Source: a virus
Virus record (IMG/VR): IMGVR_UViG_3300034061_005390
Location: 1-33,602 of that record
Direction: 5' to 3' (one strand)
DNA: 33,602 nucleotides
The translations under genes and the position numbers were made by a program. The notes below the pieces were generated by a model. The model was not told the DNA's origin and did no database searches. It was given only the letters and a program-made list of their open reading frames with translations. Shown one piece after another: positions 3,291 through 33,120 of this stretch. Positions within the stretch are counted from its first letter, which is position 1. Every line of letters starts with the position of its first letter.

Positions 3291-3911
3291 TCACTTGAAT
3301 CTTGTGAATGGATCTACATCACTAATTGAAGCAGCGAGATCTGTAATTGTTCTTGGGTTCTGAACACCATTTTTAGTTTCCAGGGTTGCCCAATCATATC
3401 TAACTTGTAATTCAATTTCAGTTAATTCTTCTTTGCTATAATCTAAATCGCCAAACTTGACAGATTCAATAAAGGCATTGTGAAGAGTCCAAGTTTCAAT
3501 AGCATCTCCACCAATTAAACCTTGAGGACCGTGAGATTCACTAATTTGTTTTATAACTACAGCCCCAAGAGCAGTGGTAGCAGCAGCTTTTGACATGGTT
3601 GTAACTTGTCCTGGATTAGAGGGAACAACATACCCTGCTGCTTGTATTATTGCCGATAAATGCTGACTAGCATCAGGATTTACTGGATCTACCATCTTGA
3701 TGTTGATTGGATTTGGATCCCAAGTTACCAAACCTGGATAGTGAAATTTGTGACCAAGATACATGTGCTCTTTAGCACTTATTTTTATGCCTGGTTTAGT
3801 TATTGATTTAACATAATAACTAGCAGCCGAGGGCATTTCTCCAATTGTGACCAAAAAACGATATCCACGTTTTGGTTCAAGTCTTGAATCTGTCCAGAAA
3901 AAGTTACTCAT
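3291..3911 (-). CDS. 19: Tail tube protein (T4 gp19-like)
   Basis: 206 residues, close to the 163-200 usual for T4-type tube proteins. It has the family's N-terminal pattern 'RGYRFLVTIGEMPSAASYYV' with the short segment 'VKSITKPGIKI', a 'HKFHYPGLVTWDPNPINIKM' strand region and the C-terminal beta hairpin 'YDWATLE'. Stacked hexamers of such subunits form the inner conduit of a contractile tail, polymerising from the baseplate around the tape measure protein. AGGAG lies 10 nt before the ATG and an ACTATTTA motif lies 29 nt before it, so this gene heads a unit with the two chaperone genes that ends at the terminator at 2231-2259. Directly downstream of the sheath gene, as in T4. Confidence 0.92.
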   Translation of the reverse strand: MSNFFWTDSRLEPKRGYRFLVTIGEMPSAASYYVKSITKPGIKISAKEHMYLGHKFHYPGLVTWDPNPINIKMVDPVNPDASQHLSAIIQAAGYVVPSNPGQVTTMSKAAATTALGAVVIKQISESHGPQGLIGGDAIETWTLHNAFIESVKFGDLDYSKEELTEIELQVRYDWATLETKNGVQNPRTITDLAASISDVDPFTRFK

Positions 3912-3939
3912 CTATTTGTTTCTCCTATAACTCCATTTA

Positions 3940-3947
3940 TAAATAGT
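3940..3947 (-). promoter_or_regulatory. Candidate late promoter motif for tail tube operon
   Basis: ACTATTTA on the minus strand, continuing as ACTATTTATAAAT, 29 nt before the tube ATG and only 15 nt after the sheath stop codon. The opposite strand reads TATAAATA here, the exact T4 late consensus, but that would point away from the genes. Confidence 0.55.
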
Positions 3948-3961
3948 GTGTTATTATTTTA

Positions 3962-6826
3962 TTAGTCGTCAAACGAAGCGCCACTTCTTGTTATAACAAA
4001 GTCAAGAGCTATAAACTCAATAGCACGAGCGGGTTTTAAATATATTTTAGCATACATTATATTTCTATCAACAAGATCTGGTGTTGTTGTAGTCTCGTCA
4101 AGTATTACCTTGTAATCTGATAGACCAAATCTTGATTTGACACTTGATAGGAAAGGATCAACTTCGCCTTTAAATCTATCCCAGGTAACTTTAAGATTTT
4201 GATCAAAAAGAACTCTTGTAGATATACGAGATACTTCTTTCTTTAAGTAAATAAGAAGACGACGAACATTGATTCTGTCAAGAGCAGATTGCGTTACTTG
4301 AAGAGTTTTTTGTCCAAATATTACAACACCTTCATTTGGGAAACTAGCTATTGGATTGATATTGTTTTCATATAGTTTGTCTCTATCTTTTGAAGATAAT
4401 TTTTCTCTTACATCTATAACTGACAAACCACTCAATCCTGACGTTAGCCCACCGCGATTGAATCCGGCAGGAGCAAACCAAACTTCAGTTGATTCTTGTG
4501 AAGAAGCCATTGTACCAAAAGCAACAACCGATGGTGGCATCCACAATGGAACACCAGTGCCGTCATCTTGAACTTTAACCCATGGATAATAAGCACAAGT
4601 ATAGCTTGAATTAATAGATCTGCTCTTTAGACCGGATACAGTTGCCGAAACTGATCCTCTACGATCTTTTTCGCTGCTTGTATTTTCATGTGCTGGTACA
4701 TAACCACCAGGAAGATCGATTATGGCTAATGCATCGCCTCTTGATTCTGCAGTATCAATCATATGTTTTGTAACAACTGTATTTGTAACACCTGGAGCTA
4801 CAAGAAGATTCATATCAAGAACATCTGGGTCTTTTACTGTATCTATTGCTTTTTTAAGACTATAAAGCATCGCATTGTCGTCTTCAAAATCTGATTCATT
4901 CAGAAGAGTGTTTCTAAATGGATCTTTTTCTTTTACATTTAGTCCATCTGTTCCCCCGAAAAGTGGGACAGTAAATCTATCGGCACCATATGCCAATGTT
5001 GCTTTATAACCTTCAAGATCTCCGGAGCCGGTTGCTGCTATGGCCGATATAGAAGTTCCTGGTGATGCTGCTCTTGAGCCCGATTGCCATACGCTCAAGC
5101 CATTGGTATTTGGAAGAGAGATAACATCGTCAAGAGTAAATATCCAAGAAGCTTTTGTTACTCCGCTTTGTGGAGCATGTGAATTGACACCAAGTGGTTT
5201 TGCTCTAACTAGATCTAGATAATCTTCATCAAATCTTGAATCAGTTGTAGATACTATTCCATAATAAGCGTCACTGGCGACCAAAGTACCAGCTGTAGAA
5301 GAACTCACTCTTAATTTCATTGTTGGGAATTTAATGAGCATCTCAGAACCGGTTGGCAACCCAGTCACACCAATTGAACTACTGACAGTTGTTGGTGCAA
5401 AAGGCATCAAATCCGTACCGCGAATCATTGAAGAGGCAGGTATATCAGAACCACTTACAAGAACAACATCATCAAACACTGGTGGACCAAAAAAGCCAAA
5501 CGGCAGTGATTCTTCTGGGATTCCAGACTGTTCAAGCAGTTCAGATAGTTCAACTCTTATGTATGAAGAATTATTTGGATAATTTCCATATTTTATATAT
5601 CTTTTTGTTGTATCATCCCACTCTAGATATTCATCGCCTATTTTGTTTCCAACGAAATCGGCAGAATTTGGATTTAAATTACATCCAGTAAATACTTCTA
5701 GCACAGTAGGATTGGAATCGGTATCGTCGGCTCTTCTAATTTCAACAGTAAATGTTCCAAATTTATTAAAATTATTTGTTGATGGTTTGATATCTCTTAT
5801 GCTAACTTTTATATTTTTCTGTTCCCATTCACCGCCGGCAGTTTCGGTCACAGCAAATCTAAACAATTTTGGCATTTGTTCGGCAACAAAACTAGATGTA
5901 ACAGAACTTAAGTGTTGTGATATTATCCAGCCACTTTTTGCTGTTTCGTTTTGTTTACCAGAAAAATTACCTGCATCAATATCTGGAGAAATTGATTTTA
6001 GTGGGGCGATAAAAGCCATATTCCCACTAACTTGGCTAACATTTTCTGTTAAGAAAGTAGCAAAAGTTTCTCCTAGCCAATAATTTGATAATGAATCGCT
6101 AGTTGTTATATTTGAATTTACTAATGTTGGATTTGTATTGAATACTTTACGAATATATTTTGAGGAATCACGAGAAAAGTTAAATGATGTATCTAATTTT
6201 GTAGCACCAGAAGAATCTACAATTTGTGCTCTAAATTCATAATTTGAATTTATGCTTTTAATTAATTCGCCTGCACCATTAGAAGAAAGCACATTGTTTG
6301 GTCTGTTGCCGACAAGCTTTATGCCACCTGAATTTAGATACCAAACAGCAGCAAGTGTACCAGTTAATGAAGTTAAATTGCTTCCCGATGGAACAACAAA
6401 TAAACCATAAGCACCGCCATTGTTTGCCAAACTTGCAGTAGCGGTGTTGTCTAATTTCCATCCTGCTTTTGCTCTTTCTCCAGCACTTGGTGAGACATTT
6501 GGACTTTGTTGGCCGGCAAGACGAACGAAAGTTAATGGATTTGAGTTTTTTAACCAAGCCTTGGCAGCATAAGCAGCATAAAGAGGAGAAGATGATTTGC
6601 CGCTTCTCCATGTATCATCACCAGCTACGCCTCGTGTTGGTTCGCCAAATTTATCAACAAATTCTAAATAACTATTAACAGTTACCGGAACCATTGTTGG
6701 CCCTCTTTCAGCGCGTCCAATTACGACTGGACCTATTTCTGCTGGGATAGCCGGAATTTGTGACTTGTCTATTTCACTTATAAAAATACCTGGCGAAACA
6801 AAACGAAATTTTTTGCTTGTAGTCAT
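3962..6826 (-). CDS. 18: Contractile tail sheath protein (T4 gp18-like)
   Basis: 954 residues, much longer than T4 gp18 (659). The N-terminal 'FVSPGIFISEIDKSQIPAIP' and 'GPVVIGRAERGP' are hallmark sheath sequences, and the C-terminal region (about 840-950) has 'VRRLLIYLKKEVSRISTRV', 'DQNLKVTWDRFKGEVDPFL' and a final 'KPARAIEFIALDFVITRSG', matching the conserved inner sheath domain. The roughly 300 additional residues lie in the middle (about 130-560), which is Ser/Thr/Asn-rich and probably forms surface-exposed inserted domains. Sheath subunits surround the tube and contract to drive it through the host envelope. SD AGGAG is 9 nt before the ATG; a candidate promoter lies 36 nt before it. Followed directly by the tube gene. 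Confidence 0.95.
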   Translation of the reverse strand: MTTSKKFRFVSPGIFISEIDKSQIPAIPAEIGPVVIGRAERGPTMVPVTVNSYLEFVDKFGEPTRGVAGDDTWRSGKSSSPLYAAYAAKAWLKNSNPLTFVRLAGQQSPNVSPSAGERAKAGWKLDNTATASLANNGGAYGLFVVPSGSNLTSLTGTLAAVWYLNSGGIKLVGNRPNNVLSSNGAGELIKSINSNYEFRAQIVDSSGATKLDTSFNFSRDSSKYIRKVFNTNPTLVNSNITTSDSLSNYWLGETFATFLTENVSQVSGNMAFIAPLKSISPDIDAGNFSGKQNETAKSGWIISQHLSSVTSSFVAEQMPKLFRFAVTETAGGEWEQKNIKVSIRDIKPSTNNFNKFGTFTVEIRRADDTDSNPTVLEVFTGCNLNPNSADFVGNKIGDEYLEWDDTTKRYIKYGNYPNNSSYIRVELSELLEQSGIPEESLPFGFFGPPVFDDVVLVSGSDIPASSMIRGTDLMPFAPTTVSSSIGVTGLPTGSEMLIKFPTMKLRVSSSTAGTLVASDAYYGIVSTTDSRFDEDYLDLVRAKPLGVNSHAPQSGVTKASWIFTLDDVISLPNTNGLSVWQSGSRAASPGTSISAIAATGSGDLEGYKATLAYGADRFTVPLFGGTDGLNVKEKDPFRNTLLNESDFEDDNAMLYSLKKAIDTVKDPDVLDMNLLVAPGVTNTVVTKHMIDTAESRGDALAIIDLPGGYVPAHENTSSEKDRRGSVSATVSGLKSRSINSSYTCAYYPWVKVQDDGTGVPLWMPPSVVAFGTMASSQESTEVWFAPAGFNRGGLTSGLSGLSVIDVREKLSSKDRDKLYENNINPIASFPNEGVVIFGQKTLQVTQSALDRINVRRLLIYLKKEVSRISTRVLFDQNLKVTWDRFKGEVDPFLSSVKSRFGLSDYKVILDETTTTPDLVDRNIMYAKIYLKPARAIEFIALDFVITRSGASFDD

Positions 6827-15127: not shown

Positions 15128-15706
15128 TCAAATGTATTTCCAAGATTTATATTCTATAATTGCTTGTATTGTTGATTTACCGACTCCATATTTTCTTGAT
15201 AAACTTTTATATGTTTCATTACCAAGTGAATATAAGCTTCTTATTTCTTCTACTATTTGTTTATTCAATTTAGCAGAACTATTATTTTCGCCTCTATTTT
15301 TCTCTCCCATTTTATTTTTAAGTTCATCGCTTCTATTGTTAGCTATTAGTTTAATTTTATCTTTAGTTTCTTTTGAATGTTGCTTTCCATAAAATGGATT
15401 GTTTTTACCGCTCTTATCTGTAGGATTTTTATCAAAATTATAGCCTATATCTCTTTCATAGCTTTTTGTTTCTTGTAAATAAAAAATTTCTTTTTCTATT
15501 CTATTTTGATCATTTACTTGTTCAATTATAGAAAATTCAAAATTTTCTTCTCCATATTTATCCCAAGCTGCTTGTAAATATGAATTTTCGTGTATTTTAT
15601 TATTTAATTTACTTTTATGATTATTCCATCGTTTATTTATATCGTTTGTGCTTCCAATATAAATTTTATTATTTATTTTGTTTCGTATTTGATAGATTGC
15701 TTGCAT
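15128..15706 (-). CDS. Free-standing GIY-YIG homing endonuclease
   Basis: 192 residues from the ATG at 15706. Residues 4-18 give the GIY-YIG signature ('IYQIRNKINNKIYIG') followed by 'STNDINKRWNNHKSKL' with the catalytic Arg region and a Glu-rich segment. About 105-125 is a NUMOD3-type DNA-binding motif ('NNPFYGKQHSKETKDKI'). The end (about 145-190) is a helix-turn-helix of the kind 'AKLNKQIVEEIRSLYSLG' to 'KYGVGKSTIQAI'. Such enzymes cut phage DNA lacking the insertion and spread themselves by repair. The frame is open to 15781, but that region is the capsid gene's terminator; ATGs at 15718 or 15706 are possible and neither has a good SD. It lies between two terminators with no clear promoter of its own, typical of a mobile insertion. 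Confidence 0.88.
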   Translation of the reverse strand: MQAIYQIRNKINNKIYIGSTNDINKRWNNHKSKLNNKIHENSYLQAAWDKYGEENFEFSIIEQVNDQNRIEKEIFYLQETKSYERDIGYNFDKNPTDKSGKNNPFYGKQHSKETKDKIKLIANNRSDELKNKMGEKNRGENNSSAKLNKQIVEEIRSLYSLGNETYKSLSRKYGVGKSTIQAIIEYKSWKYI

Positions 15707-15721
15707 ATAAGTAAACATTCT

Positions 15722-15752
15722 AACAAATAAAGAAGCCCCTGTGAAGGGGCTT
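15722..15752 (-). terminator. Intrinsic terminator after major capsid protein gene
   Basis: On the minus strand AAGCCCC pairs with GGGGCTT around TTCACA, followed by CTTTATTTG. It is 26 nt after the capsid stop codon. Confidence 0.85.
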
Positions 15753-15777
15753 GCTTTATATAGGTTATATTTTAAGA

Positions 15778-17448
15778 TCAACCTAAGAGATCTTGGATCA
15801 CCACTAAGCCGTACATGTCTGGACGTACCATCTTCTTGGCGTAACGGGTCATAACACCCTTACGTGGTACGAAATCTTCAGTACCAAAGATGGTTGGTGT
15901 AACTTGTAGTGGTACATATGGAGCATATACGAATCCACTTTCGAGGAAACTATTGCCTTTACGACCAACAAGGATCAGGTTGCGTGGGAAGTATGGGTCA
16001 ACAAAGACATCCCATTTCTTACTGAGCGAACCTGCTTTGACAGCACCGATAGTGCCCTTGGCATCATCATGAACAACATTGGCACGGAAGCCACTGGTGA
16101 ATTCAAGGATGTTGGCAACTTCTGGTCCACAAACAACGAAGTTTGCACCACCACGAAGTGTTTTACGGTGAATTGCAGCACTTACATCATTGATTGTTTC
16201 AACGAGGGTTTCATACCACATACTGACGTTACCGGTGAAGTCAGCACCATTTGGATCACTTACACCGCTGGCAATCGCAAGACCGGTTGTACGATCAACG
16301 AATTTACCTGGACGACGTGACCAGTATAGTGTTGCAGCGGTTGCACCACGGACAAGTTCACCAAGCATTTCTTGATCAATTTCAAGACCAATCTGTTCTG
16401 AGAGAATTGAAGTGAGTTCAACTTCTGCATCAAGATTGTGGTAAGCATTGAGGTCTTGACCAAGTTCTGGTGTCCATTTTGCCTTGAGCTTGCGGGTCTT
16501 GGCAGTTACAGCAACACTGTCAACTTTGATGTCAATTTCTGGAATGTTGGCTTCGCCTTCAAATGTTACTTGTTGGGCTGCAATTGCACCTAGTGAATCA
16601 GCAACGTTACCAAGAACATCAGCAACTGGCCAAGTTAATGCACGATTACCAGTTGTTAAGGTATCAGCGCCTGCACCGACAACAACTAATTTGACATGGG
16701 TATAAGTATCACCACCTACAAAATCACCATTTATATCTGACTTAGCAGTTAGACGACGAACTAATGAGCCGCTTGCAAATGTGCCACTAATAGCAATTAA
16801 GTTACTGCGGTCAAGATTTGGAAGAACTGCAACGTCTACTACGAATACTGCAACTGATGAACTGACTGCAATGTCAGCGTCATAACGGCAGTGTTGGTCA
16901 ATTGAAACATCACCAGTGCCAAATGTGCCACTATCTTTTAGAACGCAGCTAATTGTGCTATTGCTACCGGTTGGTAGTGAATAACCGTTGTTTAATGCAC
17001 GAAGTGAATTTTCAGCATTTAGACCTGACAGATTGACACCGCCAGTGAGCTGTGAACCTACAACGCCGCCGCCGAATAGTGATGAACCACTTACTGCACC
17101 TGAACGAGTACGATCAAACTTGAAGTCAAGGAAGAAGATTAGACCGCTTGGGAGACTCATTGGCTGAACGCTGACGAGTTCGTTAGCAATTAAGCTACCG
17201 AAAACACGGCGGACGATTGGGAATGCAACCGCAGCGAAACCTTCTACTTCACCTCCTGACATTGTGTTCGCTTCACGTAGTAATTCTTGTGCTTGACTTT
17301 CTAGTAGGCGAGCCATGTTCGCTTTTGCGCGATCATCGCCAATACCTTCTAATAGACCTGTGTCTGACCATTTACTGAGTAGTGCGCCACCTTCTTTTTC
17401 AAGGTCACGCTTTACGATACCTTCTGTTAATTTTTTGATTACTGACAT
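15778..17448 (-). CDS. 23: Major capsid protein (T4 gp23-like)
   Basis: 556 residues (T4 gp23 is 521). Residues 76-118 carry the family block 'FPIVRRVFGSLIANELVSVQ' and 'MSLPSGLIFFLDFKF', and the C-terminal half has 'GLEIDQEMLGEL', 'GANFVVCGPEVANILEF' and 'FVYAPYVPLQVTPTIFG'. It forms the HK97-fold hexamers of the head. The N-terminus (1-59) is a charged helical propeptide; Leu57-Arg58-Glu59 before Ala60 fits the (L/I)-x-E cleavage rule of the gp21 protease and lies close to the T4 cut (after residue 65). AGGAG is 7 nt before the ATG. It follows the scaffold gene by 28 nt and is cotranscribed with it, and is followed by a strong terminator. Codon use is more G+C-rich than its neighbours, as expected for a very highly expressed gene. 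Confidence 0.96.
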   Translation of the reverse strand: MSVIKKLTEGIVKRDLEKEGGALLSKWSDTGLLEGIGDDRAKANMARLLESQAQELLREANTMSGGEVEGFAAVAFPIVRRVFGSLIANELVSVQPMSLPSGLIFFLDFKFDRTRSGAVSGSSLFGGGVVGSQLTGGVNLSGLNAENSLRALNNGYSLPTGSNSTISCVLKDSGTFGTGDVSIDQHCRYDADIAVSSSVAVFVVDVAVLPNLDRSNLIAISGTFASGSLVRRLTAKSDINGDFVGGDTYTHVKLVVVGAGADTLTTGNRALTWPVADVLGNVADSLGAIAAQQVTFEGEANIPEIDIKVDSVAVTAKTRKLKAKWTPELGQDLNAYHNLDAEVELTSILSEQIGLEIDQEMLGELVRGATAATLYWSRRPGKFVDRTTGLAIASGVSDPNGADFTGNVSMWYETLVETINDVSAAIHRKTLRGGANFVVCGPEVANILEFTSGFRANVVHDDAKGTIGAVKAGSLSKKWDVFVDPYFPRNLILVGRKGNSFLESGFVYAPYVPLQVTPTIFGTEDFVPRKGVMTRYAKKMVRPDMYGLVVIQDLLG

Positions 17449-17472: not shown

Positions 17473-17488
17473 GGTATCATTTGATACC
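17473..17488 (-). repeat. Inverted repeat between scaffold and capsid genes
   Basis: GGTATCA and TGATACC, 7 bp with a 2-base centre, overlapping the scaffold stop codon and 25 nt before the capsid ATG. No T run follows, so it is not a normal terminator. It might be an RNA processing or stability element that adjusts capsid against scaffold expression, or a protein-binding palindrome. Confidence 0.5.
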
Positions 17489-18892
17489 GGCTAATCTCAA
17501 CCAACGATCTTTATTTTGATCAACTGGTTGTTCTGCTTGTTTGTGAGGTAAACGGAATGAACTCTTTTTACTAATCGCTTCATTCAGTGATTTTGGTGAA
17601 CGTTCTTCTTTTGCATGACCACCCACTGAATTGATTAGTGTTTCATATATTGTTTTTGCTTCACTAACAGAATCAGCCCTAGAAACAGCTTCGACAATTT
17701 GTGTTTTTTGTCGCTCATTCAAGGAGGCGCTTTTCAAGATCTGATTTTCATAAAACAGTCTGGCATTCAGTAGATTTACTTCTTCAAGTTTCTTGAATGC
17801 AGCAGACATTTGTTCTATGGTGGAAGAGAATGATTTATTCTCTTCCAAGAGTTTGTTTATTTTTGCATCTTTGCTCTCAACTTCTTTTAGGAGAACTTGC
17901 GATGCTTTTAGTAGTTCGGTTGTTTTTGATTCTTTTATTTGTTTTTTATCTGCCCTCAGAGCAGCAAAGTCAGCACCAGTTATTTCATCTGCTGGATGAG
18001 CAGCACTGGCTATTTTTTGTTGTTTTGCAGAAAGTTTCTTTTCTTCTGTTGCTGCAAATGGACCTGCAGGTTTATCGCTGGAACCTGGTGTAAAGGTTTC
18101 TTCTTCGCTGTTATATCTAACATTTCCATCTGAATCTAAATGATAATTTTCTGCTTTTTTACGAATCCAAGCTTCATAATCTTCTGTTGAACTATTTGGA
18201 TTGATAAGCTTATACGCAGCTTCTGGGAACTTAAGCTCTAAAGCATTGATTAAACTATGTGGCGGCTCTTGTTGCTGACCTTTGTAAAAAGAATACTCTT
18301 CACCTCTTGCTTCATAATTTGGATCTTCCATTTCGCTTAGTGCTTCATCTAAATTTACTTCTGCAAGTTCTTCTTCTTCAAGAATATCTTCTTCAAGTTC
18401 AATGCTTTCAAGCTCTAAACTTTCTGCCAGACCAGTTCCACCCATTGCTGGTGGAGTTTGCTCTAATCCCATAGAACCTGGTTCTTCTTCTTTATCGCCT
18501 ATTTGTAATTGATCGGCAAGATCGGCAAGATTTATTTCTAATGAAACTTCTTCTTCATCATCTGGACAAGGACAAAGTTTTTCTCCATCTGTTGCAGCAA
18601 GTGGAATATCACTGGCAGTACCAGCAACATAACCTTTATTTGATTCATCTGGTGGAGCACCACCAAAATCAACAGTTGGCATGTCACTTTGACCACCAGC
18701 AAGAGCATCAGTTGGCGATGGAGTATCAGCACTCATTTCATCTTCTTCGTCTTGCTCTAACAGTTTTTCTACTGCTTCTTTTACTTGTGGAGCAAACTTT
18801 TCTAATAGTGCTGCTTGAGCACTTTTATATGCTGAATCTCGTAGTGCTTGTGCATCTACTATTGCTTGTTCTAATAGCTTTGAACTGCTCAT
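17477..18892 (-). CDS. 22: Prohead core scaffold protein (gp22-like)
   Basis: 471 residues from the ATG at 18892 ('MSSSKLLEQAIVDAQALRD'), with AGGAG 8 nt upstream and a promoter motif 33 nt upstream; the longer frame to 18946 would run through that promoter. The protein is highly acidic, with Glu/Asp runs around 50-190, and has a C-terminal coiled coil (about 325-415) ending in 'NERQKTQIVEAVSRADSVSE', which resembles the conserved part of gp22-type scaffolds. It is longer than T4 gp22 (269). Such proteins form the core on which the capsid assembles and are degraded by the prohead protease. Its last residues 'DRWLRLAGIK' resemble the C-termini of two other proteins in the window. Directly upstream of the capsid gene, as in T4. 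Confidence 0.82.
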   Translation of the reverse strand: MSSSKLLEQAIVDAQALRDSAYKSAQAALLEKFAPQVKEAVEKLLEQDEEDEMSADTPSPTDALAGGQSDMPTVDFGGAPPDESNKGYVAGTASDIPLAATDGEKLCPCPDDEEEVSLEINLADLADQLQIGDKEEEPGSMGLEQTPPAMGGTGLAESLELESIELEEDILEEEELAEVNLDEALSEMEDPNYEARGEEYSFYKGQQQEPPHSLINALELKFPEAAYKLINPNSSTEDYEAWIRKKAENYHLDSDGNVRYNSEEETFTPGSSDKPAGPFAATEEKKLSAKQQKIASAAHPADEITGADFAALRADKKQIKESKTTELLKASQVLLKEVESKDAKINKLLEENKSFSSTIEQMSAAFKKLEEVNLLNARLFYENQILKSASLNERQKTQIVEAVSRADSVSEAKTIYETLINSVGGHAKEERSPKSLNEAISKKSSFRLPHKQAEQPVDQNKDRWLRLAGIK

Positions 18893-19642: not shown

Positions 19643-22504
19643 TCAGACTGCAAAGAATGGACTTGCGAACCATTCGCCACCTTCACAGAAGTACCATTTC
19701 TGGCCTTGTGGGAAGGCTGCTACAGCGTCATCAGCGGCATCAAGATAGAACATGTGACCGTTGTGTGCTGATTGATCACCACTGGTGTAGGCAGCAGGAA
19801 TTGTAAGAGCAGTAAACTTAGGTGCTTGGAATTTACCGCTTACTGTTATTTGATCTGCTGAACTATTACCTAGTGTTGCATTACCATTTACAGTTAGGTT
19901 GCCAGCGATGGTTACATCATCTGGTAGACCGATTGTAAAGGTGTTTGCGGCACCGAGTGCAAATGAACCACTTACTGTAACTTCATTGGCTGTGCCATTG
20001 ATTACAAGTGAAGTTAGTTCAACACTGTCAAGACGTGCATCAAGTGAATCATCACCAGCAACACGACTTGAAGCTTCGCTTGATAGCGCACTGTTTAGGC
20101 TTGCGTCTGCACTTGCACGAGTTGAACCTTCAACTGATAATGCACTTTCTAGACTTGCGTCTGAACTTGCACGAGTTGAACCTTCAACTGATAGTGCGCT
20201 GGCAAGACTGGTATCAGCACTTGCACGAGCACTTTCTTCTGCAGAAACTCTTGTATCAACACTTGCATCAGCACTTGCGCGACTTGATGCTTCGGTTGAA
20301 AGAGCACTTGCAAGACTGCTATCAGTACTTGCACGAGTTGATGCTTCGCCTGATACAACTGCTTCAATACTTGCAATATTACTTGCAATAGTGCTTGTTA
20401 CGGTTGTAGCAAAGTTTGGATCATCACCGAGTGCTGCAGCAAGTTCATTGAGAGTATCAAGTAGTTCTGGAGCACTATCAACTAGAGCGGCAACTGCTGA
20501 ATCAGTGTAGCTGTTTGCAGCGGCTACAACTGATGCATCACCAGAAACTCTTGCGGATGTTTCAGTTGATAGAGCACTGTTGAGGCTACTGTCAGCACTT
20601 GCGCGAACACTTTCTTCTGCTGATACGCGAGCTTCAAGACTTGCATCTGCACTTGCTCGGATACTTGCTTCTGCTGAAACAGCATTTGCACGATCAACTA
20701 TTTCTGTTGATAGTGCGCTGTTTAGACTTGCGTCTGCACTTGCGCGAACAGATGCTTCGCCCGAAAGAGCACTTTCAAGACTTGTATCTGCTGCTGCACG
20801 GGCACTTTCTTCGGTGCTCATGCGAGTGTCAACTGAAGCGAAGTCTGTTGAAATGTCTACAGTTATAGCATTTTCAAGACTTGCTATTGCACTTTCTCTT
20901 GCTGATGTTTCAGCACTGACTTTACCGTCAAGACTTGCTTCTGCAGATGTTGCGCGTGATTCTTCACTGCTGATCTGACTTGCAAGACTTGCATCACCGC
21001 TTACACGGCTTGAAGCTTCAGAAGAAACACTTGTTGATAGTGCAGTTTGAACTGAACCAATCTTGGTGTCAAGTGAACCTTCGGCTGCTGCAGCGCGTGA
21101 TTCTTCGGTTGATAGTCTGGAAGTTAGACTTGCATCGCCACTTACACGACTTGATGCTTCGCTGGAAATATCAACACTTAGTGAAGCAACACTACTGATG
21201 ATTTGACCAGCTTGTGTTGTATCAAGACTTGCTACATATGCAACAACTTCAGCAAATTGATCAAGATCTGCTGTTGAACCACTAAGGATAGCGTCTATTC
21301 TTGATTTTTCTGCACTGATTTGACTTGCAAGACTATCATCTGCAGCAACACGACTTGATGCTTCTGTTGAAACAGCGGTTGAGAATGCTGCAGCTACACT
21401 TGCATCGCCAGAAACACGACTTGAGGTTTCGGTACTGACTTTTGCATCAAGTGAAGCTTCTGCGGAAGCAGCGCGGGATGCTTCAGCGGAAATGCTTGTT
21501 GATAGTTTTGAATCAAGACTAGTGTCAGCACTTGCAAATGCAGTGGCTAATGATCCTTCGGCAGAAACTGCACGGGATGCTTCACTACTGATTTGTGCTG
21601 CGAGACTTGCTTCTGCGGATTCAGCACGTTCTTCTTCTGCACTAACAAGAGCGGCAACACTGTCATCGCCAGCAACGCGATTTGAAGCTTCAGTTGAAAC
21701 TGCTGCTTCGCGAAGTGATACTTCACTTGAAAGAGCACTTGCGAGACTGCTATCACCAGAAACACGACTTGATGCTTCAGTTGAAACTGCAGTTGATAGT
21801 GCAGTAGCTAGACTTGCGTCACCTGCTGTGCGAGCACTTTCTTCACTTGAAAGACGAACAGTTAGACTGCTGTCTGCTGAAGCGCGAACGCTTTCTTCTG
21901 CTGCAGCACGAACATCAATACTTGCAACACTGGCTGTTAGTTCGTTGACTTTTGAAGTCAGGTCGCCAATACCAGAAACAAGTTGTGATGCTGCTTCGCC
22001 GTCGCCATCAAGGAATTCTTGAATGTCTTTGATGGTGCTTAGTGTACCGGAAAGTACGCCATCGCCGCCGACGAGGACATCTATTCTGTTGTCAACTGCA
22101 GTTTCTAAACTTGATACTGCACTTATACGGGCTGAAACTTCAGAACTTAGTGCGCTGTTTAGACTGCTGTCTGCTGCAGCACGAACGCTTTCTTCTGCCG
22201 ATACGCGAGTGTCAACAGAATCAAAATCTGAAGCAAGTGAGTTTAGAACTGCTTGAACATTACTACCATCGCTGGTTGTAACATTTGCTGCAGCAACTTT
22301 GCCTAACGATGCACTACCTGCTGCATCAATTAGAACAACACGACCTGCACCACTTGCACTTGATGATAAATCAAGTACGAGTGAGCCGCTGACCTTCATA
22401 TCAACTGCTTTATCTTGACCGAATACTACTGTGCCGTTTTCCATGATTTTAGCAACAACTGTGCTAGAACCTGAAATAACTGCAAAACCTTTTTGTTTTG
22501 ACAT
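19643..22504 (-). CDS. Long fibre protein with 18-residue helical repeats
   Basis: 953 residues from the ATG at 22504 (AGGAG 11 nt upstream); the frame is open to 22555, but that part is leader. Residues 1-75 form the N-terminal module shared with the 183-residue protein. About 95-840 hold many copies of an 18-residue unit such as 'RASADASLESALSVEGST', interrupted near 145-200, 420-450 and 690-740 by helical inserts such as 'LLDTLNELAAALGDDPNF'. The unit is Ala/Ser/Glu-rich with Leu at regular places and suggests a long trimeric helical shaft. The end (about 850-953) is a beta-rich tip with 'NLTVNGNATLGNSSADQIT' and a final 'KWYFCEGGEWFASPFFAV'. Similar repeat fibres occur in marine T4-like phages. 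Probably a tail or head fibre; receptor unknown. Single-gene unit with own promoter and terminator. Confidence 0.8.
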   Translation of the reverse strand: MSKQKGFAVISGSSTVVAKIMENGTVVFGQDKAVDMKVSGSLVLDLSSSASGAGRVVLIDAAGSASLGKVAAANVTTSDGSNVQAVLNSLASDFDSVDTRVSAEESVRAAADSSLNSALSSEVSARISAVSSLETAVDNRIDVLVGGDGVLSGTLSTIKDIQEFLDGDGEAASQLVSGIGDLTSKVNELTASVASIDVRAAAEESVRASADSSLTVRLSSEESARTAGDASLATALSTAVSTEASSRVSGDSSLASALSSEVSLREAAVSTEASNRVAGDDSVAALVSAEEERAESAEASLAAQISSEASRAVSAEGSLATAFASADTSLDSKLSTSISAEASRAASAEASLDAKVSTETSSRVSGDASVAAAFSTAVSTEASSRVAADDSLASQISAEKSRIDAILSGSTADLDQFAEVVAYVASLDTTQAGQIISSVASLSVDISSEASSRVSGDASLTSRLSTEESRAAAAEGSLDTKIGSVQTALSTSVSSEASSRVSGDASLASQISSEESRATSAEASLDGKVSAETSARESAIASLENAITVDISTDFASVDTRMSTEESARAAADTSLESALSGEASVRASADASLNSALSTEIVDRANAVSAEASIRASADASLEARVSAEESVRASADSSLNSALSTETSARVSGDASVVAAANSYTDSAVAALVDSAPELLDTLNELAAALGDDPNFATTVTSTIASNIASIEAVVSGEASTRASTDSSLASALSTEASSRASADASVDTRVSAEESARASADTSLASALSVEGSTRASSDASLESALSVEGSTRASADASLNSALSSEASSRVAGDDSLDARLDSVELTSLVINGTANEVTVSGSFALGAANTFTIGLPDDVTIAGNLTVNGNATLGNSSADQITVSGKFQAPKFTALTIPAAYTSGDQSAHNGHMFYLDAADDAVAAFPQGQKWYFCEGGEWFASPFFAV

Positions 22505-22534
22505 ATAATGAGGATCTCCTAATAAAGAAAACAA

Positions 22535-22554
22535 TGTTATCTCTGTAGATAACA
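22535..22554 (-). other. Leader hairpin of repeat-fibre mRNA
   Basis: Perfect 8-bp stem TGTTATCT / AGATAACA with a 4-nt loop, between the promoter motif (22564-22571) and the SD of the fibre gene, followed on the minus strand by TTGTTTTCTTTATT. It may stabilise the 5' end of the mRNA, or act as a weak attenuator. Confidence 0.5.
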
Positions 22555-22563
22555 ATGTAACTA

Positions 22564-24309: not shown

Positions 24310-24762
24310 TCAACCTATGTTGAACTTTTTCCCACCAAATAGTCTGCTTATGTCAACGCCGGGATCGTTTGGTGATATTCCCCCAAGCGGATTTGCTACT
24401 GTTTCTTGTATGCTTGCCGGTACAGGAGTTGTTCCACGGAACACATCAACTCCACCAACTTTCATTGATAAACTTTTGCTTACTTGTTCGTTTTGTTTAC
24501 GAAAATCAGCAGCCATTTCTTGTCGTTCTCGTTTTATTTGTTCCATCAAATCATTATTGACCGGTGGCTTTACTTTTGTTGTTTGTTGAGCATTTGTTGT
24601 TTGCACTTTTGATGCTTCTGTTAGAACGGGTAAGGCACCTTTCATAACTTCTTTTATAACACTTGAAAGCAAACCACTTTCAAGAAGTATTTCTTCAACA
24701 CTTTCTCTAACGCATTCTTGAACTATTGGTTTTATTATTTCTTTTAGTTCGCTTTTTTTCAT
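24310..24762 (-). CDS. Head-region protein with CTS-like N-terminus
   Basis: 150 residues; no specific family recognised. It overlaps the protease gene's stop by 4 nt (ATGA), so the two are translationally coupled. The N-terminus 'MKKSELKEIIKPIVQECVRE' is an amphipathic helix like those of two other proteins in this operon, and Leu26-Leu27-Glu28 followed by Ser29 fits the gp21-type cleavage rule. The middle has Gln/Lys-rich, probably disordered sequence and a short helix; the end contains 'PLGGISPNDPGVDISRLFGG'. The context (between prohead protease and bS21, upstream of scaffold) suggests a prohead core or internal head protein. Confidence 0.75.
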   Translation of the reverse strand: MKKSELKEIIKPIVQECVRESVEEILLESGLLSSVIKEVMKGALPVLTEASKVQTTNAQQTTKVKPPVNNDLMEQIKRERQEMAADFRKQNEQVSKSLSMKVGGVDVFRGTTPVPASIQETVANPLGGISPNDPGVDISRLFGGKKFNIG

Positions 24763-25364
24763 TTTCCACCTATAATATCATTTAGCAAGCGGTTTATTCT
24801 ATCTGATTTTGTGAAAATGTTAGGTGCTTTTTTGCTTTCTGAAAGACTCATGAAAGCGCCGCCTGTTGATGGTTCGCTTACAAAGTCAAAGCAAATAAGT
24901 TGAAAGTCATCTTCAACTATTGTTAGACCACCACGCTCTTTTACGCTACCAAGACCACGACTTGATATGCCGAGTTTTACACCACTCTCAACAAGAGACT
25001 TCAATATTTGACCTGATGGTGTTGATAAAACTTTTACTTTACCCATTACATCTTTGCCATTCCACCAAATATCTGTAACAATGTGTGAAGCATTTTTTAG
25101 ATTTATAACACTTTCGTCTGGGTGATCTAACTCGCCAAGAGCACGATTTTCTGCAATAAGTTTTTTATAATTTTCTACTTCTCTGCGAAGAACATTTTCT
25201 GGATAAACACGACCATTACCATTCTTGGCATCTGCTCTTTGAATAACACCCGAAAGCATCATACCGCCACTTTTAACAAAAGTTTTTTCTGCTTCTGTCA
25301 GCAAATCCTGACATACACCGCCTTCACAGAGTTCAAAATATTCACGAAGTAGAAACTTGTTCAT
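24759..25364 (-). CDS. 21: Prohead core protease (T4 gp21-like, peptidase S80 type)
   Basis: 201 residues (T4 gp21 is 212). The body has 'SGVIQRADAKNGNGRVYP', then 'GELDHPDESV' with His81, and 'LGISSRGLGS' with Ser134/Ser135, followed by 'DDFQLICFDFVSEPS' with Asp160. These match the His and Ser regions of the S80 prohead proteases, related in fold to herpesvirus assemblin. The enzyme is packed in the prohead, activated by self-cleavage, and cuts capsid and core proteins at (L/I)-x-E sites before DNA packaging. Its own N-terminus has Leu22-Thr23-Glu24 followed by Ala25, a possible self-processing site. It is coupled to the downstream gene by ATGA and lies 5 nt after the upstream gene. Confidence 0.94.
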   Translation of the reverse strand: MNKFLLREYFELCEGGVCQDLLTEAEKTFVKSGGMMLSGVIQRADAKNGNGRVYPENVLRREVENYKKLIAENRALGELDHPDESVINLKNASHIVTDIWWNGKDVMGKVKVLSTPSGQILKSLVESGVKLGISSRGLGSVKERGGLTIVEDDFQLICFDFVSEPSTGGAFMSLSESKKAPNIFTKSDRINRLLNDIIGGK

Positions 25365-25369
25365 TTATA

Positions 25370-26392
25370 TCAACCTTTTATAAGACCGGCTAATTTTTGC
25401 CAGTGATTTATTTGTTTGTTTTCTTGAACAGTAGTTGGTGCTGCAGCTGGTACTAGAGTGGCAGGTTTTGCTGGTGCTGGTTTTGCTGGTGCTGGTTTTG
25501 CTGGCATTGTTCCTGCATTTGGATCGTTTGCCATTTTTGCACTAGCAGTCAAAACAGTATTAAAAGCTTGAATTGCTTTGCCCATTGCCATGTTCATTTG
25601 TTGTGGCTGCAAACCAGCAAGTCTTTCTTTTGGTAAAGAATCAAAAGCCTTTTTAACTAGCTGAGTAGCATTGACTCCTTTTAATTTCATAGCAGCTGCT
25701 AGCATTGAAGTAAAGCTCTTAGAAACTTGCAATCCTGCATTCATAACAGTTGGATCAGGTGCTGCTACTTGTTCTGCCAATCTAAAACTCTTGAGAGCTT
25801 TTTGTAGTTGTTTTGGATCTTTTAAAGTTTGTTTTGCTACATCGGCAAATATTTTTGCAAATTCTTCTGTAGTTAAAGAATTTAATAAAGCTTCTACTTG
25901 TTTGTTTAGTGCATTAGTCATTAAAAATGCTTGAGATTTTGGAGTTGTAGCAGTGACTTCTTCTTTAACAGGTAATTTTCTATTAACACGAGCCTGATCA
26001 GCAGATACACCACTGCCTAATACTTGTTCTATTTCTTGTTGAACTAATCCTTTTAAAAGAGAATTCATGTATTGTTTAGCTTGACCTACGAAACCAACTT
26101 TTGCTTTTTCAGCAGCTGGTGATGGTCCTGCTTGTGTTGCTGGAGGTTGTGCTGCGGCTGTAGGAGCGGGAGCATCGGCTGGCTTTTGTGCTGGTTCTCC
26201 AGTTGCGTCTTCAACAGGAGGTGTAAACTTAATAGGAGCTGCAGCAGCAGCGGCGGCTGGTTTCTTTTTAAATCTGTTCATTATTCCTGCAGCTGTTTTT
26301 CCAAACCACGCTTCGTCTATTTCGCCTTCATTTTTTAAACTTTGTAATTCTTCTTGAATTATTTGTTTTAATTTTTCTCGTGCAAGTTTCAT
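25370..26392 (-). CDS. Ala/Pro-rich prohead-region protein with CTS-like N-terminus
   Basis: 340 residues, not recognised as a known family. Residues 1-27 ('MKLAREKLKQIIQEELQSLK' onward) form a charged helix ending Ile25-Asp26-Glu27 before Ala28, a good gp21-type site. Then follow a basic patch 'RFKKKP', a long Ala/Pro-rich linker (about 45-95), a helical domain (about 100-280), a second Pro/Ala-Lys repeat ('KPAPAKPAPAKPA') and the C-terminus 'INHWQKLAGLIKG', which resembles the scaffold's end. It lies immediately before the protease, in the place where T4 has gp68. Inference: a prohead core or internal protein processed during maturation. No clear SD stronger than AAGGGAA. Confidence 0.75.
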   Translation of the reverse strand: MKLAREKLKQIIQEELQSLKNEGEIDEAWFGKTAAGIMNRFKKKPAAAAAAAPIKFTPPVEDATGEPAQKPADAPAPTAAAQPPATQAGPSPAAEKAKVGFVGQAKQYMNSLLKGLVQQEIEQVLGSGVSADQARVNRKLPVKEEVTATTPKSQAFLMTNALNKQVEALLNSLTTEEFAKIFADVAKQTLKDPKQLQKALKSFRLAEQVAAPDPTVMNAGLQVSKSFTSMLAAAMKLKGVNATQLVKKAFDSLPKERLAGLQPQQMNMAMGKAIQAFNTVLTASAKMANDPNAGTMPAKPAPAKPAPAKPATLVPAAAPTTVQENKQINHWQKLAGLIKG

Positions 26393-26405
26393 TTATAGTT
26401 CCCTT

Positions 26406-26789
26406 TTATTCTGCTGCTGCGCCTCTACGGCGCATTCCACCAACTGGTGGGTTTACAAGTGTTTTACCGAATTCAGCAGAACTTTCTGGCGAACCGGCTC
26501 CTTTTGGTGTCGTTTTGCTATACAGACCTGCTACATCGTTTGATATTTTTGTTACTTGTAAGCCAAGTTCTTTGTTTCCTTGATTAGAAGCAAGTCCTCG
26601 TAGATCTCCGAGATTCTTTTGAACTACATCAAGTTTCTTTTTTACATCGTCATCGGTAACAAAATCTCCAAACCTTGGCTGTTTGCCAAGCAGTTTGTCA
26701 AGAAAACCTTCTTCAAGTTCTCCCGTTTCTGTCATAGCATCAAGTTCTTCTTTTATAATTTTTTGTAGTTCTTGTTTTGTTACTTTCAT
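26406..26789 (-). CDS. Small prohead-region protein with CTS-like N-terminus
   Basis: 127 residues, unrecognised. Residues 1-27 start 'MKVTKQELQKIIKEELDAM' and end Leu25-Glu26-Glu27 before Gly28, positioned exactly as in the next gene's protein. The rest is a short basic stretch, a helical region (about 45-95) and a Gly/Pro-rich basic tail 'GGMRRRGAAAE'. AGGA lies 8 nt before the ATG, and the gap to the next gene is 13 nt. It occupies the place of T4 gene 67, whose product is a cleaved prohead core protein, so a similar role is plausible. This is by position only; sequence similarity to gp67 was not seen. Confidence 0.72.
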   Translation of the reverse strand: MKVTKQELQKIIKEELDAMTETGELEEGFLDKLLGKQPRFGDFVTDDDVKKKLDVVQKNLGDLRGLASNQGNKELGLQVTKISNDVAGLYSKTTPKGAGSPESSAEFGKTLVNPPVGGMRRRGAAAE

Positions 26790-32359: not shown

Positions 32360-32593
32360 TCATTTTTTTGGTTTCGTACCATTGACTGGTTCTTTTGTTT
32401 TGGGATCAAGAAGTTTATCTTCATATTTTTTATCAAGAGCAACTTCTGCTTCTATGGCTTTTTTGCCTTGTTCTTTTGAAAGTTCTTCAATAGCCTCTTC
32501 GTCAAGTTCAAGAACATTTTCTTCAACATATTTTTCATGAAGCTCAACTTCTTCACGAATGATTTGCAGCAGTCTTGCTTTGGTTATTTTCAT
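32360..32593 (-). CDS. Small acidic protein with CTS-like N-terminus (77 aa)
   Basis: Start taken at the ATG at 32593, which overlaps the preceding stop by ATGA and gives the N-terminus 'MKITKARLLQIIREEVELHE', matching the helical start of three prohead-region proteins. An in-frame start at 32620 would add nine residues and lose this match. The rest is Glu/Lys-rich and helical. An (L/I)-x-E site is present at Leu30-Asp31-Glu32, less well placed than in the others. Located directly before the large terminase, where T4 has the small terminase gp16, but too short for gp16 and without a recognisable DNA-binding motif. Confidence 0.7.
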   Translation of the reverse strand: MKITKARLLQIIREEVELHEKYVEENVLELDEEAIEELSKEQGKKAIEAEVALDKKYEDKLLDPKTKEPVNGTKPKK

Positions 32594-33120
32594 TTCTTTA
32601 GTCCACCTAATGCTAACCATTTTTGAAATTGTTCGCTACGTTCAACATCTTTTTGATCTTCAAGCTTTGGCATGTCAACATCTTTTATTTTGTAATGACA
32701 TTGTGCTGTTACAAAAACACGGATTCTTGATGTTTCTTCAACAAGCATTTTTACTTCACCATATTTTTCAACATTTAGTTCTTTGCCTGATACTTTTTTG
32801 AATTCTTTTTTTAGATATTTTAGCGCTTCTGCTATATGCTCTTCAACTTGTTCACCAAGCTTTGGACTGTGTGCTTCTTCAAGTTTGAGTTCTGAATGAT
32901 AAGATATTATCAAACAAGGAAAAGAACCATCTTTTGCTGCGTGATGTGTTACGCGAGCACGAAAACCATCAAGGAGACGACATTCACAACTGGTAAATGC
33001 TGGGACTTCTTCACGGCGCAGACCTGCTTTGATTGCCTTACCGTCTTTGTCGGTAGCACCATCATATGTTTGTGCCATTACTTGTGAAATACCGCTTATT
33101 ACATCCATTAGTTCAGCCAT
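32590..33120 (-). CDS. Unknown protein upstream of terminase (176 aa)
   Basis: No family recognised. The sequence suggests an alpha/beta fold: 'EVPAFTSCECRLLDGFRARV', 'FPCLIISYHSELKLEEA', a helix rich in Lys/Glu (about 90-112), 'EVKMLVEETSRIRVFVTAQC'. The C-terminus 'SEQFQKWLALGGLKK' resembles the ends of the scaffold and the 340-residue prohead protein. AGGAG lies 10 nt before the ATG. It is coupled to the next gene by ATGA and belongs to the terminase operon. It could be a packaging or head component. Confidence 0.72.
   Translation of the reverse strand: MAELMDVISGISQVMAQTYDGATDKDGKAIKAGLRREEVPAFTSCECRLLDGFRARVTHHAAKDGSFPCLIISYHSELKLEEAHSPKLGEQVEEHIAEALKYLKKEFKKVSGKELNVEKYGEVKMLVEETSRIRVFVTAQCHYKIKDVDMPKLEDQKDVERSEQFQKWLALGGLKK

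Follow-up and report, generated by a model that had tools for sequence, protein, structure and literature searches.

The internal proteins of bacteriophage T4 are few, and one of them, IPI, is injected and blocks host restriction. To our knowledge, the tag carried by these proteins has been studied in essentially one phage group. The internal proteins (IPs) are made with propeptides of 10-19 residues that direct them into the core; targeting depends on residues 4 and 7 of the propeptide and cutting on residues 8 and 10, and the cargo itself varies among phages (PMC9026906). The protease that makes the cut, gp21, has the specificity L/I-X-E (PMC9026906). In the giant phages SPN3US and phiKZ, inner head and ejection proteins likewise have propeptides that are removed by a gp21-related protease (PMC5694885); these are mostly longer than 100 residues, in contrast to the short helix common to unrelated proteins that is described here.

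The DNA analysed, referred to below as the window, is the whole of a 33.6-kb viral record (IMGVR_UViG_3300034061_005390; 33,602 nt). Its head genes are in T4 order: portal (Pfam PF07230), small proteins, gp21, scaffold, capsid protein, an arrangement seen both in T4 and in Flavobacterium phage immuto, in which the scaffold also lies between gp21 and gp23. Genes for leader-bearing proteins of 127, 340 and 77 aa are found around the gp21-type protease within this cluster (Table). The window has other genes in and near the cluster. The gene for a 66-aa ribosomal protein bS21 (PF01165; 24094-24294, minus strand) separates the 150-aa gene from the capsid genes and shares the strand of the head genes; in the described Bacteroidetes bS21 phages, bS21 is on the opposite strand (PMC9723584). 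A GIY-YIG homing endonuclease with a NUMOD3 motif (15128-15781, minus strand) lies directly downstream of the major capsid gene, and a 970-aa protein made up mostly of degenerate repeats of the type ASADASLNSALSxE (19643-22555, minus strand) is encoded between the gp22-position scaffold and a 468-aa gene.

Table. Features of the window, with the observation on which each assignment is based
Feature	Coordinates	Strand	Basis or remark
127-aa leader-bearing protein	26406..26789	(-)	homologues just upstream of gp21 in related contigs
Leader of 127-aa protein, residues 1-27, MKVTKQELQKIIKEELDAMTETGELEE	26709..26789	(-)	predicted cut before Gly28
340-aa leader-bearing protein, candidate prohead core protein, C-terminus NHWQKLAGLIKG	25370..26392	(-)	scaffold-tail match
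Leader of 340-aa protein, residues 1-27, MKLAREKLKQIIQEELQSLKNEGEIDE	26312..26392	(-)	predicted cut before Ala28
Scaffold-like C-terminal tail WQKLAGLIKG of 340-aa protein	25373..25402	(-)	tail motif
gp21-type prohead protease (Peptidase_S77)	24759..25364	(-)	PF03420, E 1.9e-31; phrog_207
150-aa conserved head-cluster protein, downstream of gp21	24310..24762	(-)	66 homologues in fetched loci
150-aa N-terminal region, residues 1-49	24616..24762	(-)	two confident helices, then candidate site L47-T-E49↓A50
Scaffold candidate, gp22 position, C-terminus KDRWLRLAGIK	17477..18892	(-)	position and tail motif
Major capsid protein (Gp23 family), conserved propeptide site LLRE↓A	15778..17448	(-)	PF07068, E 8e-71
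77-aa leader-bearing protein before terminase	32360..32593	(-)	shared N-terminal module
Leader of 77-aa protein, residues 1-20, MKITKARLLQIIREEVELHE	32534..32593	(-)	nearest (L/I)xE is LHE↓K

The 127-, 340- and 77-aa proteins begin with one common N-terminal module, MK(I/V/L)xxxxLxxIIxEE(L/V). An earlier note on this DNA had proposed that the window encodes a family of cleavable, capsid-targeting-like leaders, and the residues it quoted are all present (↓, position of a candidate cut or, in T4, of the known one): L25-E-E27↓G28 in the 127-aa protein, I25-D-E27↓A28 in the 340-aa protein, L26-L-E28↓S29 in the 150-aa protein, L22-T-E24↓A25 near the N-terminus of the protease and L57-R-E59↓A60 in the capsid protein. 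The protease site is conserved across homologues as LLTE↓A or LLTE↓E; in capsid homologues a small or polar residue comes after LLRE or LLKE. The 127-aa protein has no Pfam or PHROG match, and none was found in phage isolates. Its 16 homologues are 23-86% identical to the window protein and diverge in their bodies, and the columns that are invariant among them (M1, K2, L8, E14, E15, G23, E24 and E27) all fall in the leader and the site. Thus, the leader of this family is not conserved without its site; the one is as conserved as the other, and none of the observations listed in the earlier note as contrary to its proposal turned up. AlphaFold predicts, at low confidence (mean pLDDT 57), a helix over residues 5-21 and a coil at 22-28 that holds the site. 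Translation of the 77-aa protein begins at an internal ATG (32593) within ORF 32360-32620, and its LHE↓K is also present in its closest homologues.

The 150-aa protein, which the earlier note had placed in the same family with a cut after Glu28, is the product of a separate conserved head gene. It has Pro12 in place of the leader Glu, and the protein is conserved as a whole rather than having a variable body; the first ~45 residues define a distinct conserved family with 66 homologues. All of these have Glu28, but in 48 of the 66 another Glu comes right after it, and Glu28 sits inside a confidently predicted helix. Residues 47-49, in contrast, are (I/L/V)xE in nearly all homologues, most often have A, T, S, N or Q next, and are positioned where the predicted helices stop and a disordered linker starts (the AlphaFold model has two helices and a long disordered part). 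L47-T-E49↓A50 is the better fit to gp21; should this protein be cut, 49↓50 is the more likely position.

The leader is a genuine, modular element. In a sample of 80 viral loci fetched by protease similarity alone, 47 have the module on at least one ORF, for a total of 70 ORFs; all 70 are on the protease strand, and they are concentrated at distances of up to 3 kb from the protease and immediately upstream of terminase. By comparison, none of 80 viral loci chosen by tRNA (2060 ORFs) contains it. A DNA pattern for the leader has at least 120 matches in viral contigs and a single match in 257 Gb of cellular genomes, which lies on a phage-like MAG contig whose other ORFs bear further phage-type leaders; two similarly designed control patterns matched 2 and 4 times in the viral collection, and the reversed leader pattern gave no match. 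When the gp21-chosen loci, the DNA-pattern loci and regions of longer contigs are taken together, there are 415 leader ORFs in about 215 related viral loci, and their bodies fall into ~243 clusters, 188 of them singletons, a count that is an upper estimate because clustering at E 1e-3 can split distant homologues. (A smaller, earlier set of 355 leader ORFs gave 227 body clusters.) Among 84 bodies searched, there is no common Pfam or PHROG family; most have no informative match from which a cargo function could be read, and the single matches include one J-domain and one leucine-rich repeat protein. The J-domain body, which is DnaJ-like and has the HPD motif (L173, 6890-7471, minus strand), follows the leader immediately, with no (L/I)xE site. 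Descriptions of leaders of this type, MKITK..LKQII, were not found in the literature searched, a text search for the motifs also gave nothing, and neither a cultured phage with the exact leader nor such a phage with published virion proteomics was found.

Because the regular expression used for selection covers residues 1-15 only, the residues past 15 provide an independent test of whether the leaders end in a cleavage site. In a non-redundant set of 292 leaders, no more than 30% identical over residues 16-45, (L/I)xE ending at residues 18-28 is present in 173, compared to 94.4+-6.1 expected from a null model in which each column is shuffled among the sequences and its composition kept; the same site followed by A, G or S is present in 70 (22.0+-4.3 expected). 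In these 292 leaders, neither control spacings of 1, 3 and 4 nor replacement of E by D or K gives counts above expectation, and residues 33-47 show no excess of (L/I)xE. A 219-cluster version gave the same result, and its P1' ratios are 4.2 (Ala) and 2.9 (Gly). In most leaders the last residue of the site is 21 or 22; residue 27 is typical for the genes around the window protease. The motif enriched at these predicted leader ends matches the specificity of T4 gp21, and sites of this kind are also present in the capsid protein family (LLRE↓A) and the protease (LLTE↓A) of the window phage. The motif is not a property of every leader: about 59% of leaders carry it, versus 32-34% by chance, so that about 40% lack the strict site at residues 18-28, and the surplus above the chance level amounts to just ~40% of leaders. 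The remaining leaders may be cut at weaker sites or may be uncut. A cut within the leader itself, at the conserved I12-x-E14↓E15, is disfavoured, since Glu shows no preference at P1'.

The earlier note had also raised the question of whether the leader always occurs with gp21. A gp21 match is present in 11 of 13 leader contigs of at least 97 kb, versus 7 of 15 tRNA-selected contigs of that size (Fisher p 0.04), an association that is modest because the contigs are fragments; the tRNA-selected contigs serve as the baseline because the two control patterns gave too few contigs. Some leader contigs have no detected gp21, and since the contigs are incomplete, its absence is uninformative. Within contigs of at least 97 kb, 26 of 55 leaders are no more than 20 kb from gp21, compared to 14.4 expected. 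The leader is nonetheless not restricted to the head cluster: in 7 of the 11 long gp21 contigs some or all leaders are more than 20 kb from gp21, and groups of leaders at such distances are found in several. In the long contigs G011, G016, G017, G018 and G019, up to eight leader genes are present per cluster, several in tandem, far from gp21.

The closest described counterpart is the capsid targeting sequence (CTS) of T4 IPI, IPII, IPIII and Alt. Like the leader, the CTS is N-terminal, starts with MK, is carried by unrelated cargo in phages that have gp21, has a hydrophobic i, i+3 spacing (F4/F7 in T4 IPI; L8/I11 here) and ends in an (L/I)-x-E↓A-type gp21 site. The layout of the IPI N-terminus, MKTFKEFTSTTTPVSTITE↓A, is the same: an early hydrophobic pair, a spacer and then the site. 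As with the CTS, one tag is found on unrelated proteins, here the 415 ORFs and their 243 clusters. The leader differs in that it is an extended, K/E-rich helix that precedes the site, has L/I replacing F/Y, and is found on several hundred different proteins of uncultured aquatic phages. It is also longer, at about 18-27 residues (27 in the window proteins) versus 10-19, and the sequence in common is limited to MK and the hydrophobic spacing; with a length outside the T4 range and so little sequence to judge homology by, membership in the T4 CTS family is not claimed. Some leaders, such as MKIKEFKSFIREEIISTLSE and MLKSTFKNFIKEEIRNILRE in loci of the LAG class described below, look intermediate in sequence between the F-x-x-F of the T4 CTS and the L-x-x-I-I of the window.

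The 340-aa protein has no Pfam or PHROG match, but the LAG(I/L) tail at its end is the C-terminus of gp22-position scaffolds in related phages, including that of the window; in the loci scanned for it, the motif was C-terminal in 30 of 33 occurrences. Because the tail of the 340-aa protein matches a scaffold tail, a role as a prohead core protein is likely. The slot of this gene is occupied in L007, L009, L010 and L012 by a protein with a different-looking body and a leader that ends in EIDE↓K at the same position, and in L002-L006 by one with a degenerate leader that has V or M at P3 (GVQE↓G, GVSE↓G, GMSE↓G).

The same tail reappears in a second tag. RMQKLAGI(I/L)xE is found at the N-termini of about 53 unrelated body clusters in Flavobacterium-phage-like contigs (L218-L337). 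Its final Glu was set by the search pattern, but the following residue was free and is mostly N, S or G. All 8 of the contigs of at least 50 kb that were tested have gp21. Without the site, RMQKLAGI(I/L) is the C-terminal tail of gp22-position scaffolds; in phage immuto (L200), gene 204 ends in RWQKLAGIIK, and gene 188 carries a tag of this class, MKKQILSEQFRRMQKLAGIITE↓S; gene 191 of the same phage has a leader of the LRQIIKEA type. Like the MKITK..LKQII leader, this tag is N-terminal, belongs to many unrelated proteins of gp21 phages and ends in (I/L)-x-E. It differs from that leader in being a copy of the scaffold tail, the two have no sequence overlap, and neither was found in the other's loci. 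That cargo should carry a copy of the scaffold tail together with a candidate cut site suggests how such tags work. There is also a third leader class, MK.L.ENWR.(F/Y)L.E, on several ORFs of L216, a contig filed as an Opitutia MAG (1194-1709, 1906-2406, 2403-2843 and 3854-5239), and on 30 ORFs in 23 leader loci.

Taken together, the enrichment of a gp21-type site, the link to gp21 phages and to the head cluster, and the unrelated bodies argue that the shared N-terminus is probably a modular capsid-targeting propeptide, similar to the T4 CTS, that is removed by the gp21-type protease. Read in this way from sequence, the earlier proposal of cleavable targeting leaders is supported for the proteins of 127 and 340 aa, with weaker support for that of 77 aa, and is not supported as stated for that of 150 aa. 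An amphipathic helix at residues ~4-20 (L8-x-x-I11-I12-x-E14-E15) would dock the precursor onto the assembling prohead core, with the gp22-position scaffold as the likeliest partner. During head maturation, the protease would then cut after (L/I)-x-E, a few residues beyond the helix (the last leader residue would be 27 in the 127- and 340-aa proteins, and mostly 21 or 22 elsewhere), the leader would leave the head, and the cargo would be released inside it; some cargo may be ejected from the head into the host. We infer each of these steps: docking, cleavage, location in the head and ejection. Leader genes far from the head cluster would encode internal cargo; the T4 ipI gene is also away from gene 21.

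It is unlikely that the helix is instead an assembly motif of scaffold-like core proteins that gp21 degrades wholly, at many sites, with no targeting of cargo. T4 gp22 and gp67 are indeed cut into pieces (PMC9026906), many leader proteins adjoin gp21, and the 340-aa protein has the scaffold tail as well as the leader. However, sites are enriched at the end of the leader only, the hundreds of bodies are unrelated and unlike scaffolds, as the J-domain and LRR matches illustrate, and some leader genes are distant from the head cluster. A function outside the head, either as a helix for binding or localisation (to membrane, polymerase or a host factor) or as an mRNA element, with the excess of (L/I)xE arising from shared ancestry, is more doubtful still. 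Such a function would accommodate the contigs with no detected gp21 and the leaders located outside the head cluster, but only the correctly spaced (L/I)xE is enriched, and with A or G after it, whereas D, K and other spacings are not; this holds among leaders no more than 30% identical over residues 16-45, and the Ile and Leu codons of the helix vary freely, which argues against an mRNA element. Finally, the motif is short and of biased composition, as might be expected if K/E/I-rich N-termini in AT-rich phages simply resemble one another by chance. That explanation is hardly credible given the control, reversed and tRNA-locus searches, and chance composition as a source of the cut-site motif is ruled out by the column-preserving shuffles, by the spacing and residue controls and by the control patterns.

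If the leaders are capsid-targeting propeptides, the function is T4-CTS-like, on a notable scale. Internal head cargo would become readable from the genomes of uncultured aquatic phages, and for hundreds of unknown proteins one could state where they reside, where they are cut and what probably becomes of them, namely packing into the head and perhaps injection; the rule offered for testing is a tag followed by (L/I)xE↓A/G/S. The tags would also be new ones for loading proteins into phage heads. These sequences point to an extensive, unstudied repertoire of proteins packed in aquatic phage heads. Whether aquatic T4-like phages package a large, fast-changing internal protein set by means of interchangeable tag classes (MKITK..LKQIIKEE, RMQKLAGIITE and NWR.FL.E), at least one of which copies the scaffold tail, is in our judgement evenly balanced; if they do, hundreds of proteins now called 'hypothetical' would be effectors inside the head, perhaps ejected, and could be recognised from sequence alone.
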